Part shown: positions 26,709 through 50,200 of the stretch, piece after piece
Layout of the letters: each line of letters starts with the position of its first letter
Position numbering within the stretch: position 1 is the first letter of the stretch
NCBI GenBank assembly: GCA_032027145.1
Contig: JAVSMP010000001.1
Coordinates: 710,903 to 774,902, forward strand
Direction: 5' to 3'
Length of the DNA stretch: 64,000 bases
DNA from: Ignavibacterium sp.
GTDB lineage: Bacteria > Bacteroidota > Ignavibacteria > Ignavibacteriales > Ignavibacteriaceae
The notes under the pieces: model-generated
The model's input: only the letters and a program-made list of their open reading frames with translations
Databases searched by the model: none
Told to the model about the DNA's origin: nothing
Position numbers and translations under genes: made by a program

Positions 26709-27213
26709 CTATTTGTTTTTTCTTTTTTTAATACGACGTTTTTGCTTTTCAGTTTCATTCAGAGGCTGCTCGGATTTTAGCTGAAAAGATTTATAATTCT
26801 GATTTGTTACAACCTTTCTACCGGACTTTCGCTCCAAATCTTTTCTTGCTCTTCCTGCAACACTTCCTCCTTCAATCGCTGCATGTTTATTTTGATCGAA
26901 GCCCAGGGCATTTTTATTCTTTGCAATTTCTGTTGTAGATGCCTCGCCGAGCATTGTAAATATCAAGTAACTGATTGACATCAGTAAGGCGCATTTTGCC
27001 ATCAGCAGCCTTAATTTTCAACGCGTTACAATTTGTCACGGTTTCATTTCCTTCTTCTTTCAGGCGTTTTTTCAGAACACGCCAGTAAACCTGAGGATTC
27101 GGACTATTGGTAAATATTGCAATTACATCTACAATTGCGAAAAACCATTTTTGCTCTTTTTCGTTCCACTCAGAACGAATTTTCCTTTGTTCAAAAAGTT
27201 TAATGTCAGCCAT
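26709..27213 (-). pseudogene. Bro-N phage antirepressor-like gene, internally deleted and frameshifted
   Basis: Two frames together match one protein family. Frame 1 (27213 to 26914) has the Bro-N start (IKLFEQRKIRSEWNEKEQKW, AIVDVIAIF, QVYWRVLKKRL) and runs to LTDVNQLLD; frame 2 (27002 to 26709) has the family's C-terminal module (IFTMLGEASTTEIAKNKN, AGRARKDLERKSGRKVV). Compared with typical full-length relatives as I recall them, the central part is missing and the join at about 26965 is out of frame. AAAGGA precedes the start. It lies in the cas operon between cas7 and cas4, and its second-frame stop directly precedes the cas4 ATG. A prophage-type passenger gene, now broken, though both halves are otherwise open. 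Confidence 0.75.
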
Positions 27214-27250: not shown

Positions 27251-27445
27251 TTATTCAACATCAACAACCTTAAATGTTTCCGAAAATGTTTTTCCTTCGA
27301 GCTATATTTCCCCCCTAACGGGATTATTGTTGAAATATTTATTCATAAGTTTATTCTTTTATCTCCTGTCCCGATAGGGACTAAATATTTCTAGATCAAT
27401 AATGCTGAGACAATACAAGTCCCATAGGGACGATATAGAAATTCA
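27251..27445 (-). repeat. 195-bp cas7-tail/REP unit, diverged copy
   Basis: One unit of the family described at 27978-28500. On the minus strand it carries a copy of the cas7 3' end (encoding EGKTFSETFKVVDVE then stop) followed upstream by hairpin-forming REP-like motifs CCCTAACGGG, GTCCCGATAGGGAC and GTCCCATAGGGAC. Separated from the other copies by the transposase gene, and more diverged than they are in the cas7-like part. Its far end contains the last codon and stop of the transposase gene. Confidence 0.85.
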
Positions 27446-27904
27446 TTTAACATCAATCAAAACATATTTTTCATTGTATGACACCTCATATTTTTTTAAC
27501 ATATCAATATATTCTTCCCTAAATGTTTTTCTCCTATGATGTATTTCCTGATTATTTATATATTTAACAACAGAATCAATTTGTGAATTCGAAAAAGAAA
27601 AGGCGCCGTAACCAGATTGCCAGTTAAAATGACCATTAACGAGTTTTTGCTCGTTTATCCATTTTGATGAATTGCCTTTTATGTCCTGTAATAAATCCGG
27701 AATAAGTTGATGTGGTTTGTATCCAATTGCAATATGTAAATGATCGGGCATTCCATTTATTGCAATTAATTTATGATCGTTATTTCTGACTATTCCGGTA
27801 ATATATTTGAATAATTCATTTTTCCACGAAGCTTGAATCAGCGATATTCTGTTTTGTACAGCAAAAACAAGATGAAGATATATTTGCGTATATGTATTGG
27901 CCAT
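27443..27904 (-). mobile_element. IS200/IS605-type Y1 (RAYT-like) transposase gene
   Basis: 153 residues. HUH motif His55-Leu-His57 in GMPDHLHIAIGY and catalytic Tyr115 in SVVKYINNQEIHHRRKTF, the layout of IS200-type single-tyrosine transposases that cut and join single-stranded DNA at hairpins. AAGGA lies six bases before the ATG. It is flanked by small palindromes (GTCCCTATGGGAC at 27923-27935 and the GTCCC-n-GGGAC series on its other side), as expected of a REP-associated transposase. The gene is intact and co-oriented with the cas operon, between cas7 and cas4. Confidence 0.9.
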
Positions 27905-27977
27905 AAATTTCCTTTTTATTTCGTCCCTATGGGACTATATTTTTATTGTTGCCACTAATTTTCTATAACTATCAAAT

Positions 27978-28500
27978 CCCTAACGGGATTATTGTTGAAA
28001 TATTTATTCATAAGTTTATTTTTTTATCTCCTGTCCCGATAGGGACTAAACATTTCCAGATCAATAAGGCTGAGACAATACAAGTCCCATAGGGACGATA
28101 TAGAAATTCATTAATCCACATCAACAACCTTAAATGTTTCCGAAAATGTTTTCCCATCGAGATATATTTCCTCCCTAACGGGATTATTGTTGAAATATTT
28201 ATTCATAAGTTTATTTTTTTATCTCCTGTCCCGATAGGGACTAAACATTTCCAGATCAATAAGGCTGAGACAATACAAGTCCCATAGGGACGATATAGAA
28301 ATTCATTAATCCACATCAACAACCTTAAATGTTTCAGGAAATGTTTTTCCATCGAGATAAATTTCCTCCCTAACGGGATTATTGTTGAAATATTTATTCA
28401 TAAGTTTATTTTTTTATCTCCTGTCCCGATAGGGACTAAATATTTCCAGATCAATAATGCTGAGACAATACAAGTCCCATAGAGACGATATAGAAATTTA
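27978..28500 (-). repeat. Tandem 195-bp units: REP-like hairpins plus copies of the cas7 3' end
   Basis: Units at 28306-28500 and 28111-28305 are in exact 195-bp register (CCCTAACGGG recurs at 27978, 28173 and 28368). A third, 27978-28110, keeps only the hairpin part because the transposase segment replaces its cas7-like part. Each full unit holds about 60 bp copied from the 3' end of cas7, encoding LDGKTFSETFKVVDVD or the SETF-to-PETF variant and a stop, then CCCTAACGGG, GTCCCGATAGGGAC and GTCCCATAGGGAC. The genuine cas7 tail reads RVIDVD where the copies read KVVDVD. Confidence 0.93.
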
Positions 28501-29349
28501 TCAATCCACATCAATAACCCTAAATGTTTCCGAAAATGTTTTCCCATCGAGATATATTTCATAATCTGAATAATCTCTTGCCGGAGCTTCTACTAATTTT
28601 TTGTGGGTAACACGCGCAAAAAGCTCGTGTGCTGGTTTACTGCCTAACGCGGTTTTGTGTTTGAATGCAATTATCTTTCTTGTATTCATTTCACCACGTG
28701 CAGCAGAGTGGTCTTCTTCGAACATTTTCTGCAATGCTTCCCAAAATAAATTCAGATCATCTTCAGAAAATTTAGTGTCGTTTGCAAGGTGAGCAGAAAT
28801 AAATCCGTGTGCTCTATATAAACCATATGGTACTGTATATTTGCGCCCCATTTCCGAGCCTCCTGTTTCAGATCTTTCTTCAGTTGTTTTGGCAATACGG
28901 GTAATGGTATGTTCGAGTGCAACGATTGCGTCGACAGAACGCGCAAAAGTTAACTGTATTGGACCACGAACTTGCCCTGCATTTTTACCTGTACTCATTA
29001 CGGCTCCAAAGGTTCTTATATCAAAATATTTTTTACACATCCACATTCTTGCAGCCTCTGTTTTATCTCCTTTTTCTTTCTTACTTACTTCGTCATCTTC
29101 GTGCGCTTTATCAATTAGGGTATTGAGTACTGCTTTTTCTTTGATAAAAATATCATAAGGTGATTTTTCTTCTCTTGTCATCAAAACATAATTCCTAACT
29201 TTTCTTTTAATACAAACATCAGTTACTAAGCCGTTACCAGTTTCTGCATCAATGCGTGGTAAATTACCTGCATCCGGATCACCGTTTGGGTTGCCGTCTT
29301 TTACATCGAAGTAAAGAACAAAGTCGTAGCGATTTTTAATTGGTTCCAT
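28501..29349 (-). CDS. cas7: Cascade backbone protein Cas7 (Csd2, type I-C)
   Basis: 282 residues. Forms the helical backbone that wraps the crRNA spacer. The N-terminus (YDFVLYFDVKDGNPNGDPDAGNLPRID) is the Csd2 signature; the central part includes FDIRTFGAVMSTGKNAGQVRGPIQLTFARSVD. AAGGAG is eight bases upstream of the ATG, a strong site fitting a protein needed in many copies. It ends at TCA 28501-28503, exactly where the tandem tail copies begin. The cas8c stop lies 21 bp upstream. Confidence 0.97.
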   Translation of the reverse strand: MEPIKNRYDFVLYFDVKDGNPNGDPDAGNLPRIDAETGNGLVTDVCIKRKVRNYVLMTREEKSPYDIFIKEKAVLNTLIDKAHEDDEVSKKEKGDKTEAARMWMCKKYFDIRTFGAVMSTGKNAGQVRGPIQLTFARSVDAIVALEHTITRIAKTTEERSETGGSEMGRKYTVPYGLYRAHGFISAHLANDTKFSEDDLNLFWEALQKMFEEDHSAARGEMNTRKIIAFKHKTALGSKPAHELFARVTHKKLVEAPARDYSDYEIYLDGKTFSETFRVIDVD

Positions 29350-31868: not shown

Positions 31869-32137
31869 AAATGTTATCTCCTGAAATTTATTAAATATGT
31901 CGTCCCCACGGGACTTAAATTCTCATTCATTAATTCGTTCTATGAACATATCGTCCCTAAAGGGACTCTTGTTATTTCTGACAATTTTTTCTATAAGTAT
32001 TTTATCCCTAAAGGGATTTATATGTAAAACCTCACCGCTTAAAGCGGAATCTTTTTTTGTCTCGATAGGGACAAAAAGATGACGGGGTCTCAGAGGGACG
32101 AAATATAATTCAATTAACATCAATCAAAATATATTTT
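31869..32137. repeat. REP-like palindrome cluster between cas3 and cas5
   Basis: Non-coding gap holding a series of short inverted repeats: GTCCCCACGGGAC (31902-31914), GTCCCTAAAGGGAC (31953-31966), ATCCCTAAAGGGAT (32004-32017), CCGCTTAAAGCGG (32035-32047) and GTCTCGATAGGGAC (32059-32072). They share the GTCCC-n-GGGAC form of the hairpins around the transposase at 27.4 kb. In the cas transcript they would fold into consecutive hairpins between cas3 and the Cascade genes. Confidence 0.85.
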
Positions 32138-32139
32138 TC
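32110..32139 (-). pseudogene. Remnant of a second RAYT transposase (last ten codons)
   Basis: The minus strand encodes EKYILIDVN and a stop; the intact transposase at 27443 ends EKYVLIDVK and a stop. DNA identity covers 28 bp with one mismatch (27447-27474 versus 32114-32141). The remnant abuts and slightly overlaps the cas3 stop codon, and REP-like hairpins continue beyond it. Confidence 0.8.
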
Positions 32140-34435
32140 ATACAACACTACTTCCAATTATCCAATCAGATTCATCACAAATCAGCCCTAATCCCGATAC
32201 ATACAAATTTGGATCACTCTGTACCCAATAACCGTTAATATTTTCTACATAGCCAGTATTATTAATTTTATCGAAGCAATAAATAGGAACGTTAACAACA
32301 TATCTCTGCAATTTTCTCATCAATTCTTTTGAAGCTCCTGCAAATTTTAATTGTTCAATAAGTCTCTGACTGTCTTTACCGGTTTTCGTGCTTTTGTATT
32401 GCACTATAATGCTAAACTGCTTTGTTGAATCAATCATATTAAACTTTTCTGCGAATAATCTGAACTGGAAATTGAAATCCGATACATCTCTGACTAAATG
32501 ACTATAAAAATCAACTTTATCAAATGAGTTAAGATTTGAGTATAGATATTTGAAATATTTTGAATAAAGACTAGGTGTAAATTCAGTATCAGAATTATTT
32601 CGAAGAATTGATTTACCAGCATCCTCACATTTTCTTAGAAATCCTTGCGGCGATGGTTTTGGTGGAACAAAAATAAACACCTTTCCACTCTGCAATTGAT
32701 TTTCTCTGTTACATCTGCCTGCTGCTTGTGCAATTGAATCAAGTCCTGTTAAAGCCCTATAGACAACCGGGAAATCTATATCAACACCTGCTTCAACTAG
32801 TTGTGTGCTGATAACTCTTATTGGTTCTTTATTCTTAAGCTTTGTTTTAATATCAGAAATAATCTCACTTCTTTCTTCACCGCACATCAACCCGGAAAGA
32901 TGAACAGTCCCTTTGGGCATTAACTTATGAAGCTGCCTGCAATCATTTCTTTGATTAACAATACATAAAACTTGATCATAGGTTTGAAGCTCTTCTGCGA
33001 TATCAATCCAGCCAGATGGATTATTAAACTCTTTTGGTAAAATATATTGAACACGTTTAAAGTCCTTTGCAAGCAAATCAGGATTTTCAATAATTTCTAT
33101 AACATTATCAAATCCCTCAATAGTGTTAGCGTCGCTTCCAATTTTTCCGTTAAGTGCAGGTTGTGTTGCAGACATTAGGACAACTGTTACACCAAAATGA
33201 TTAACCAATCCTTTGAGCACACTTATTATTGGCTTTAAAAATTCTGTGGGAATCATTTGCGCCTCGTCTAAAATAATAACGCTGTTTACTATGTTGTGAA
33301 TTTTTCTGCAAACAGAAGTCTTATTTCCAAACAACGATTCAAACAATTGAACATTAGTTGTTACGATTATTGGTGCATCCCAATTTTCGGTTGCAAGTCT
33401 GTTCTTGGTGTTCTCGCTTTCAAGATCAAGATTGCTATGATGCTCTACAACCTGATCATCGCCAAAAAGAAACTTACCTTCCTGTTTAAATTTTTCAATC
33501 TCTTCATCAATGTCAGTGCCGTATTTAAAAACTTTTGCTGTTTGTTCAATTATACTTGTGTATGGAATAGCAACAATGATTCTTTTCTTTTTGTGTATTA
33601 AAGCGTGCTCTAAAGCGAATGCCATTGATGAAAGTGTCTTTCCTCCACCAGTCGGCACCGTTAGTGAAAAGAAACCGGGAGAAAGATTAGCTTTTTCTCT
33701 GCATTGATTTAAAATTTCATTTCGTCTTTTATTTAGTGTTCCAACCGATTTCTTGGTCGTCATATAGTTATCAAATCGCTGCTTCAATTCTTCTATTGAT
33801 AAATACCCGCCTCTATCTTTTTCATCCATATAATTTTCTGTATCAAGAAAGTCAGCATCAACAAGACAAGAAAAAAGCATTCTAATCCAGAGATGAATTT
33901 GTTCATTAGAGTTTTTATCTGTTTTATTCTTGAAAACTGTTGGAATGGAAGATGGGATTGCTTTATTAAGAAACTGTTTTGCTTCTTCAATTATTTTTAT
34001 TTTCTCTAAATCATCAGTAATAAGCTTACCATCATCGAAAAGACGGTTTTCTAAATCTGCTATCCAGTCTTTTAATCCCGTATGATGACACCCAATAACA
34101 TAAGATAAAATTTTTGCCGCTTGAGAATAATTAAATTTTTCAAAAATATATGCAGCCCCTGCCTGGCTATGATTTGGTCTGCTGCCATAATTTTCTATAT
34201 GTGCGTCTTCATCATGATAACCGGTTTCTCTTCTAATATACTTTTGCCAATCAGGATGATATTTTCCGAGGTCGTGCAGATAACCAGCTAACTCAGCCCA
34301 ATCTTTATTTCCGAATTCAGAAGCGAATTCACCAGCTCTTTTTGCAGTATCATTAAGATGAGTAGATAAATAATGCGGCTCTGCCCAAATTCCTTCTGAA
34401 GATTTTTTTATGTGTGCGATAAATTCTTTTTTCAT
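32138..34435 (-). CDS. cas3: CRISPR-associated helicase-nuclease Cas3 (HD domain fused)
   Basis: 765 residues. HD nuclease domain at the N-terminus with His26, then His54-Asp55 in GYLHDLGKYHP and further histidines at 117-118; SF2 helicase with Walker A at 260-267 (VPTGGGKT), DEAQ box at 390-393 and SATQP motif III. It is recruited by target-bound Cascade to unwind and degrade invading DNA. It is the first gene of the cas operon, and the 380-bp gap upstream probably holds the promoter. All key motifs are intact. Its stop codon coincides with a transposase remnant, so the last residues could have been altered by that event. Confidence 0.97.
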   Translation of the reverse strand: MKKEFIAHIKKSSEGIWAEPHYLSTHLNDTAKRAGEFASEFGNKDWAELAGYLHDLGKYHPDWQKYIRRETGYHDEDAHIENYGSRPNHSQAGAAYIFEKFNYSQAAKILSYVIGCHHTGLKDWIADLENRLFDDGKLITDDLEKIKIIEEAKQFLNKAIPSSIPTVFKNKTDKNSNEQIHLWIRMLFSCLVDADFLDTENYMDEKDRGGYLSIEELKQRFDNYMTTKKSVGTLNKRRNEILNQCREKANLSPGFFSLTVPTGGGKTLSSMAFALEHALIHKKKRIIVAIPYTSIIEQTAKVFKYGTDIDEEIEKFKQEGKFLFGDDQVVEHHSNLDLESENTKNRLATENWDAPIIVTTNVQLFESLFGNKTSVCRKIHNIVNSVIILDEAQMIPTEFLKPIISVLKGLVNHFGVTVVLMSATQPALNGKIGSDANTIEGFDNVIEIIENPDLLAKDFKRVQYILPKEFNNPSGWIDIAEELQTYDQVLCIVNQRNDCRQLHKLMPKGTVHLSGLMCGEERSEIISDIKTKLKNKEPIRVISTQLVEAGVDIDFPVVYRALTGLDSIAQAAGRCNRENQLQSGKVFIFVPPKPSPQGFLRKCEDAGKSILRNNSDTEFTPSLYSKYFKYLYSNLNSFDKVDFYSHLVRDVSDFNFQFRLFAEKFNMIDSTKQFSIIVQYKSTKTGKDSQRLIEQLKFAGASKELMRKLQRYVVNVPIYCFDKINNTGYVENINGYWVQSDPNLYVSGLGLICDESDWIIGSSVV

Positions 34436-48542: not shown

Positions 48543-50200
48543 TTGATGAACAAAAAATAATTGGATTACTTCAGGCAAAGGCTTTGGGATGTCTTGATTC
48601 TTCCGACGAAGAAATTCTTTCTGATTTTATAAATGGAGGACATTTATTTCCATGGGATGAATTAGGTGCTTTGCAGAGTGTCGCCTCGCTTTTACCCATT
48701 TCACTTCCATTGGAACTGCCTGATCCATCACTAAAGGATAAGATTGCTTTAAGATTAATTAAATTAACCGAAGAAATTCGTGCTCAGAAGATTATTCAGG
48801 AAGAAAAACAAATACTGCCAGAAGTTGATGTTGCCATATCACAAGAACCAGATTTTATTGAAGAAGAATTTGAACAGCAAATTGAAGAATTAAATGACAC
48901 TCAAGAATCAGCACCCGAACAACAAGGAGAATTTGAAGAAGTAACCGGAATCAAAATTGAAATACCAGATTTTATTGAAGAAGAATTTGAACAGCAAATT
49001 GAAGAATTAAATGACACTCAAGAATCAGCACCCGAACAACAGGAAGAATTTGAAGAAGTAACCGGAATCAAAATTGAAATACCAGATGTTGTTGAAAAAG
49101 AGTTTGAACCGCAAATTGAAGAATTAAATGACACTCAAGAATCAGCACCTGAACAACAGGGAGAATTTGAAGAAGTAACCGGAATCAAAATTGAAATACC
49201 AGATGTTGTTGAAAAAGAGTTTGAACCGCAAATTGAAGAATTAAATGACACTCAAGAATCAGCACCTGAACAACAGGGAGAATTTGAAGAAGTAACCGGA
49301 ATCAAAACAGAAATTCCGGATATTATTGAGGAAAATAATTTCAACATGGAAATCGAGGAAGCAACTTTTAATCTAGATGATGTTGTTTTACCCGATTATG
49401 ACTTAATAAATACTTCTGAAACTGAGTTTGATCAAATTGAGCAGCCCAATATAGAAAACATCACAGAAAAACCCTTTGAAGAACCACCAATTGAAACCCA
49501 GCCAATTGATACAGTTGAACCTTTTAAAGAATTACCGGCTGAAATATCTTTTGATCATACGATTAAATCATCTGAAGAAGAATTAACCGAATCGCTGCCA
49601 ATTGAGACAGCGTTGTCTGATGCTGTTGAGTCGTTTAACGAACAATTTATTGAAAAACCGGTGAGTGATACGGATAAAGCATTTGAAGAACCTCTGACTA
49701 ATGAACAGGCTTCGGATATAGTTGAACAATCTGAAGAACCTATGACTGAATCAGCCGAAACATACACTCAGTCTATTGAACCATTATTAGGCAGTGAAAC
49801 AATTGTTGAACAAACTGAAAAAACTCAAGAGGAGGTTACAGAACAGGTTCAAAATAAAGCTGTGCGGGATGCAAAAACAATCGCAGAGTCTGATACTGAT
49901 TCTGAGAAACAGCCGGATCTTACAAAGCGTAGTGTTGCAGATAAGTTGTTTAAAGCAATTGAACAGGATTTTGATTCACTAAAATTTCATTATGAAAGAA
50001 GTGAGGCAAAACTTAAAAGAGGTTTGCTTGTTTCTTACGTAGTTATTGCCGTGTTGTTTTTGCTGCTTATCTTCTCATTCTTTAAACTCAGCGGCGATGT
50101 AAACAATTTGTTGGATGAAATTAAAAGCCTGAAGAAAAATACCAGTTCTTTTTTGATTAAAGAGAAGAACATTAATTCATTTTATCAATTCTTCGGTTAA
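48539..50200 (+). CDS. Putative membrane anti-sigma factor with acidic 39-residue repeats
   Basis: 553 residues. N-terminal helical part (IIGLLQAKALGCLDSSDEEILSDFI) resembles the cytoplasmic domain of RskA-type anti-sigma factors. Then come four tandem 39-residue acidic repeats (nt 48848-49315; core FEQQIEELNDTQESAPEQQ), a long Glu/Pro/Ser/Thr-rich stretch, a basic segment and one membrane span near the C-terminus (LLVSYVVIAVLFLLLIFSFF, about residues 496-515), with a short coiled-coil-like tail outside. Coupled to the sigma gene by ATGA overlap. The large acidic insert between sensor and membrane is unusual for an anti-sigma factor. The 3' end overlaps the convergent gene by 29 bp. Confidence 0.7.
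   Translation: MIDEQKIIGLLQAKALGCLDSSDEEILSDFINGGHLFPWDELGALQSVASLLPISLPLELPDPSLKDKIALRLIKLTEEIRAQKIIQEEKQILPEVDVAISQEPDFIEEEFEQQIEELNDTQESAPEQQGEFEEVTGIKIEIPDFIEEEFEQQIEELNDTQESAPEQQEEFEEVTGIKIEIPDVVEKEFEPQIEELNDTQESAPEQQGEFEEVTGIKIEIPDVVEKEFEPQIEELNDTQESAPEQQGEFEEVTGIKTEIPDIIEENNFNMEIEEATFNLDDVVLPDYDLINTSETEFDQIEQPNIENITEKPFEEPPIETQPIDTVEPFKELPAEISFDHTIKSSEEELTESLPIETALSDAVESFNEQFIEKPVSDTDKAFEEPLTNEQASDIVEQSEEPMTESAETYTQSIEPLLGSETIVEQTEKTQEEVTEQVQNKAVRDAKTIAESDTDSEKQPDLTKRSVADKLFKAIEQDFDSLKFHYERSEAKLKRGLLVSYVVIAVLFLLLIFSFFKLSGDVNNLLDEIKSLKKNTSSFLIKEKNINSFYQFFG
48848..49315 (+). repeat. Four tandem 117-bp in-frame repeats
   Basis: CCAGAT recurs at 48848, 48965, 49082 and 49199, exactly 117 bp apart. 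Copies 1-2 begin DFIEEEFEQQ and copies 3-4 DVVEKEFEPQ, so the array probably grew by two steps of duplication. The near-identical DNA implies recent expansion or ongoing homogenisation. Confidence 0.95.

Follow-up and report, generated by a model that had tools for sequence, protein, structure and literature searches.

The window analyzed here is a 64,000-nucleotide stretch of the host genome (G000, a single closed contig of 3.67 Mb related to Ignavibacteria). The minus strand of the window encodes a type I-C CRISPR-Cas operon, in the order cas3, cas5, cas8c and cas7, then cas4, cas1, cas2 and the CRISPR array. A repeat array occupies the interval between cas7 and cas4 (Table 1). Read in this direction, the real tail of cas7, with hairpin block a, is followed by two tail copies joined to hairpin blocks b and c, respectively, and thereafter by an inverted palindrome and the transposase gene tnpA, a further hairpin block (d), an orphan cas7 tail (tail0), a broken Bro-N/DinD-like gene (hereafter dinD-like) and cas4.

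Table 1. Features of the cas7/cas4 interval and its surroundings (window positions)
Feature	Position	Strand	Remarks
Second hairpin array, between cas3 and cas5	31900–32141	−	carries a stretch of about 30 nt from the 3′ end of tnpA, fused immediately past the cas3 stop
cas7 (type I-C Cas7/Csd2), 282 aa, intact	28501–29349	−	TIGR02589 4e-107; PF05107 1e-104
Last 60 bp of real cas7	28501–28560	−	
Unit 1: real cas7 tail and hairpin block a	28366–28560	−	palindromes 28474–28486, 28423–28436, 28367–28378
Unit 2: tail copy (28306–28365) and hairpin block b	28171–28365	−	FPETFKVVDVD, stop kept
Unit 3: tail copy (28111–28170) and hairpin block c (27976–28110)	27976–28170	−	FSETFKVVDVD, stop kept
Palindrome block upstream of tnpA	27913–27936	+	inverted relative to the downstream block 27418–27441, 92% complementary
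tnpA, Y1/IS200-type HUH transposase, 153 aa, intact	27443–27904	−	PF01797 1e-27; motifs DHLH, WQ, YINNQEIHH
Hairpin block d	27311–27442	−	directly downstream of tnpA
Orphan cas7 3′ end (tail0), diverged	27251–27310	−	in-frame TAG; where cas7 would end beside the dinD-like gene
Bro-N/DinD-like gene	26709–27213	−	two overlapping frames; relatives have an intact version of about 280 aa in the cas7/cas4 interval

Three 195-bp units, 96–98% identical and told apart by 5–11 substitutions, fill positions 27976–28560, each consisting of the last 60 bp of cas7 and a block of three palindromes. TRF places the array at 27977–28560 (3.0 copies, 96% matches, zero indels, score 1091), and a separate repeat search returned the same register (starts at 27312, 27977, 28172 and 28367). 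These results confirm an earlier note on this DNA, which had described a 195-bp unit recurring in register downstream of cas7 and, in each full unit, about 60 bp of the cas7 end including the stop codon. The three GTCCC/GGGAC-type palindromes per unit that it reported are likewise present, two of them being GTCCC..GGGAC and the third TCCC..GGGA. Between what it took for a partial unit at 27978 and a diverged copy at 27251, it had overlooked the intact tnpA gene and block d. The 195-bp unit folds strongly in silico (z = −5.3; 0 of 200 shuffles equally stable). Several palindromes in the array are nevertheless broken, including the first one past the real cas7 stop, and no T-run typical of a strong terminator was found at the array hairpins. 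A comparison of 26.7–29.4 kb with Rfam, at E values up to 1, matched no known RNA family, and the 195-bp unit has no further copies anywhere in G000.

Both in-frame tail copies end in KVVDVD, compared to RVIDVD in the gene. To this extent the copies agree with one another against the gene, as the earlier note had it, but they also differ from each other at four tail sites, all inside 25 bp (P = 0.006), and at every one of these the copy of unit 3 is identical to the real cas7 gene. Given this clustering, and given that one copy matches the real gene at each site, patchy conversion or recombination among the tails is likely on sequence grounds; the previous idea of tails evolving together agrees with these mosaic differences. 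The tail differences are conservative (S/P, K/R, V/I). As the orphan tail reads EI-stop-LEGKTFSETFKVVDVE-stop, with an internal stop, it is a relic. No convincing copies of the gene's own tail were found at the other cas7 loci examined (entry L108 of that list being the window itself), where two short and weak own-tail matches were obtained, one in L087 (opposite strand, inside the same tail) and one in L122 (77% over 39 bp). Each in-frame tail copy also ends a 31-codon ATG frame, MNKYFNNNPVREEIYLDGKTF(P/S)ETFKVVDVD, at 28111–28206 and 28306–28401 on the minus strand; these frames are probably due to chance.

All three hairpin/tail joints fall at the identical base, and at this point cas7 and the outer flank of the hairpin family have 9 nt in common. 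The sequence ATGAAATAT, which sits at the joint, is the only 9-mer common to the whole 849-nt cas7 gene and the flank consensus GGGATGAAATATTTATAG (codon-shuffle test, P = 0.003, for a consensus that was built from relatives and picked after the joint had been seen); the exact consensus flank is not carried by any hairpin of G000 today. Since the joints are identical and the match occurs only there, one founding microhomology joint with subsequent tandem duplication is likely. Blocks b and c are identical save for the final base before the joint, and blocks a and d share states that are absent from b and c, so that b/c represents the youngest duplication.

The tnpA gene lies inside the array, between unit 3 and the orphan tail, with inverted copies of the array palindromes on both sides. 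Its product scores above the cut-off of the IS200/IS605 TnpA profile NF033573 (69.6 bits, cut-off 55) and below that of the REP-associated tyrosine transposase profile NF047646 (28.5 bits, cut-off 80), and it resembles the solved TnpA 2xm3 (1.6e-8). The gene is present in a single copy in G000, its next best relative there being 32% identical; the several near-identical mobile copies expected of an IS200/IS605 element were not found for tnpA in this genome. TnpA-Y1 proteins of subclass 1.2 are characterized by DH[IV]H, WQ and Y---Q--HH motifs, a length of about 148 aa and low copy number (PMC6006769), and the window's TnpA fits this subclass in its low copy number, its 153 aa, its WQ and YINNQEIHH motifs and, with L in place of I/V, its DHLH motif. 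Members of subclass 1.2 are generally without IS200-type terminal structures and are listed without REPs (PMC6006769). In contrast to this REP-free description, most of the corresponding genes in the order of the host have matched palindromes on either side, inverted at the tnpA loci of relatives as they are in the window. At many tnpA genes the stems of the left and right palindromes agree with each other, yet they vary from locus to locus.

Across this order, noncoding direct repeats were found at 17 of 29 tnpA loci, 14 of which include palindromes. Such palindromic noncoding direct repeats are thus present at 14/29 tnpA loci, several of which share genomes and are not fully independent, versus 0/43 controls (Fisher 3e-7), where one further control match, L010, is the window itself. 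At the 17 hairpin sites analyzed in G035, no noncoding direct repeats were observed. Duplicated ends of neighbouring genes were encountered as well: at G008:C51, the end of a histidine-kinase gene (about 159 nt) is repeated with hairpins beside tnpA, and at G019:C38 the end of a sigma-54 regulator is repeated beyond the hairpin block and that of a TPR gene upstream of tnpA (both G019 cases diverged, 80–82%). Duplication of a neighbouring gene end at a tnpA locus is therefore not unique to cas7. Control matches to duplicated gene ends were discounted because they fall in CRISPR-array-like stretches with spurious frames, and an HsdS-like end at L265 (73%), a weaker case of a tail copy, was set aside as ambiguous. 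Other tnpA genes also lie inside tandem hairpin arrays (L058/L262 in G041:C21, L043, L046/L265, L047/L264 and L060/L263), with units that are longer or more numerous, for example about 365 bp in L058.

Of the 12 closest cas7 loci, 7 have hairpins of this family that begin 10–14 nt past the cas7 stop, a distribution which, on the cas7 tree, is compatible with one gain and three losses. The palindrome GTCCCN3-4GGGAC occurs 13 times in the 3.67 Mb of G000, with 10 of the 13 in the cas locus; strict counts amount to 2–13 per genome in most hairpin-bearing genomes and to 41 in G035. Because the strict palindrome is rare in most genomes, the position of the hairpins in the operon is inherited or maintained rather than a result of their abundance, and the hairpins probably came with the operon. 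In a Melioribacteraceae operon, cas7 is followed by hairpins, a tnpA gene (77% identical), hairpins and cas4, with no tail copies, and no orphan tail was found in six other operons in which hairpins directly follow cas7. Similar to the window, the cas3/cas5 interval carries hairpins in three relatives. A general attraction of these hairpins to gene ends was not observed: for all 48 palindromes checked in G035 and G003, the distance to the closest stop that was found exceeds 60 nt.

An orphan cas gene end at the interference/adaptation boundary, as represented by tail0 next to the dinD-like gene, has counterparts of matching layout in three relatives. In G041 (L172) and G032 (L169), the end of the old cas7 persists behind a different type I-C module, with a length of 27 and 31 codons, respectively. 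In G006 (L168), a divergent type I module is bordered on one side by the old cas3, of which the first 77 codons remain, and on the other by the final 24 codons of the old cas7. These are independent precedents for module exchange that leaves a cas7 end behind. The arrangement of tail0 beside the dinD-like gene resembles the undisturbed cas7–dinD junction of relatives, and with these precedents tail0 is probably a module-exchange scar. The cas7, cas1 and cas4 trees, which are poorly resolved around the window, do not separate the two modules. Independent recombination of interference and adaptation modules is reviewed in PMC4390879 (with Almendros et al. 2014 cited therein); the cases in G041, G032 and G006, and probably the present one, differ from this description in that a 3′ piece of the old cas7 remains and renders the breakpoint readable. 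A mirror image of these cas7-end scars is provided by a cas4 5′-end fragment (67 codons in G288) that is followed by a dinD-like gene and a complete cas4 in L151 and L184 (G288) and in L153 and L167 (G318). The dinD-like gene itself is recurrent between cas7 and cas4, being found in the window and in L086, L087, L090 and L107. In L088 and G032 its slot is occupied by a different gene, which we take to be RhuM-like.

Overall, we consider it likely that the array is a tandem REPIN-type hairpin cluster around a resident Y1 transposase gene which arose by a joint and duplication. In all likelihood it represents a scar of evolution and not a device, most likely without any function beyond that of the ancestral hairpins. 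According to this model, one illegitimate joint, formed in this lineage at the 9-nt match, would have connected cas7 codon 264 to a hairpin block at the outer edge of the latter. The block would thereby have come to separate the functional end of cas7 from an orphan one by the dinD-like gene; the simplest reading of the orphan end is as a scar left by an exchange at the interference/adaptation boundary. Unequal exchange between repeats of the 60-bp tail and the 135-bp hairpin block, or slippage at the hairpins, would then have generated the 195-bp units, and small conversion patches among the tails would have come last. A second event or a module exchange is assumed, because plain duplication of a tail together with its hairpins would place a hairpin block beside the dinD-like gene, where a bare tail is found instead; the divergence offers too few sites to date tail0 against the hairpins. 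Whereas the anatomy, identical joints, microhomology, mosaic differences, repeat-rich tnpA loci and scars in relatives are observed, we infer the order of events, the recombination mechanism and the absence of a selected function.

The array could also have grown by the action of TnpA, which would excise the cas7 tail and hairpins and reinsert them as a non-autonomous element beside existing copies of that element. A site within cas7 would serve as a surrogate end, with the gene end as a passenger that restores cas7 at every insertion. The (tail-hairpins)n-tail0 structure with its identical joints, the intact tnpA within the array, the richness of the order's tnpA loci in hairpin direct repeats and the duplicated gene ends at G008:C51 and G019:C38 are all in line with such a scenario, which we regard as unlikely given the six other operons without an orphan tail, the 17 G035 hairpin sites without noncoding direct repeats and the absence of the unit elsewhere in the genome. 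In addition, IS200-type elements are not known to duplicate their target on insertion. The proposal that REP spread had dragged a gene end along stands insofar as a gene end is part of the repeat unit and two other tnpA loci show duplicated neighbour gene ends, but tandem duplication that started from a single joint is the better reading of the array. In a still wider version, which we hold to be quite improbable, subclass 1.2 Y1 transposases of Ignavibacteria would move hairpin units into gene 3′ ends while carrying a replacement end. If true, the gene would survive and each insertion would leave an older end downstream, the cas7 array being a stacked record of such events, and the renewal of gene ends by hairpin units would be akin to the restoration of tRNAs by tRNA-targeting islands.

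A regulatory array, in which the hairpins slow ribosomes where cas7 translation stops or stabilize the mRNA of the interference genes, and duplication strengthens the effect, would set the expression of interference versus adaptation genes and would be compatible with an origin by joint and duplication. The position of the hairpins 10–14 nt past the cas7 stop in seven loci and the strong fold agree with this, as does the report that translation is lowered in E. coli by REPs located no more than 15 nt from a stop (PMC12306157). However, three losses fall even inside the hairpin-bearing clade, and the broken palindromes and missing T-run described above do not fit well, so that we consider a regulatory role unlikely. 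The earlier note had further proposed a potential store of alternative Cas7 C-termini. In such a store, gene conversion would swap the working tail for a copy and alter the protein. Although frame and stop are kept in two copies and the mosaic differences point to exchange, the changes are conservative, the outermost copy contains an in-frame stop and the other cas7 loci examined are without such copies of their own tail, and we therefore regard this proposal as very improbable. Tandem repeats are liable to mis-assembly, but with 5–11 substitutions between units, a single closed contig and a unit far shorter than a long read, a unit number produced by the assembly is hardly credible.

The proposed tandem hairpin cluster can be compared to known REP systems. 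In Pseudomonas fluorescens, tandem REPIN clusters include flanking sequence and in some cases lie beside transposase genes (PMC3116915). The array resembles the clusters by RAYT genes in strain SBW25 in its tandem units of hairpin doublets and flank and its adjoining Y1 transposase gene. It differs from them in that a cas gene contributes the flank, namely its coding 3′ end including the stop, that about 13 palindromes rather than hundreds are present in the genome, and that a GTAG foot is absent (PMC3116915). Of the features characteristic of REPtron-type systems, inverted palindrome blocks on both sides of tnpA and tandem units with flanking sequence were found, and dispersal of the family in high copy was not (13 palindromes in 3.67 Mb). 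Short intergenic palindromes in inverted pairs are also shared with GTAG- and CGTC-tagged REPs (PMC3733652). In reported CGTC REPs, which have no dedicated transposase, the CGTC is unpaired before an 8–9 bp stem, whereas here it falls within the 5-bp stem (PMC3733652); membership in the CGTC-tagged class was ruled out by this stem geometry, GTCCC/GGGAC being a 5-bp stem that uses GTC. The designation of the hairpins as REP-like in the earlier note was thus apt, in the sense of a REP-type family tied to a transposase. Its statement that the structure is undescribed has to be narrowed, as tandem REPIN clusters with flanking sequence are known (PMC3116915); in the literature searched, we found no account of a tandem REPIN cluster that includes the coding end of a gene, and none that links REPs to transposases of subclass 1.2. 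What is unusual is the nature of the repeated flank, the coding 3′ end of a gene, and the transposase, which comes from a subclass reported as REP-free.

These findings mark the interference/adaptation boundary of these type I-C operons as a repeated breakpoint, where orphan cas7 ends record swaps in at least three relatives and make module exchange readable at base level. They also tie a little-studied, reportedly REP-free transposase subclass to a palindrome family of its own and to tandem growth of flanking DNA at tnpA, which in one case takes in the coding end of a cas gene.

Two further observations were made in the course of these comparisons. In L083, L085, L088 and L104, cas8c is just 51–56% identical to that of the window, while cas5 and cas7 are mostly 80–85% identical, which suggests that cas8c was exchanged separately at these loci. 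Elsewhere in the window, a 117-bp tandem repeat (48847–49333; 4.2 copies, 95% matches) has a unit length that is a multiple of three and is probably coding.
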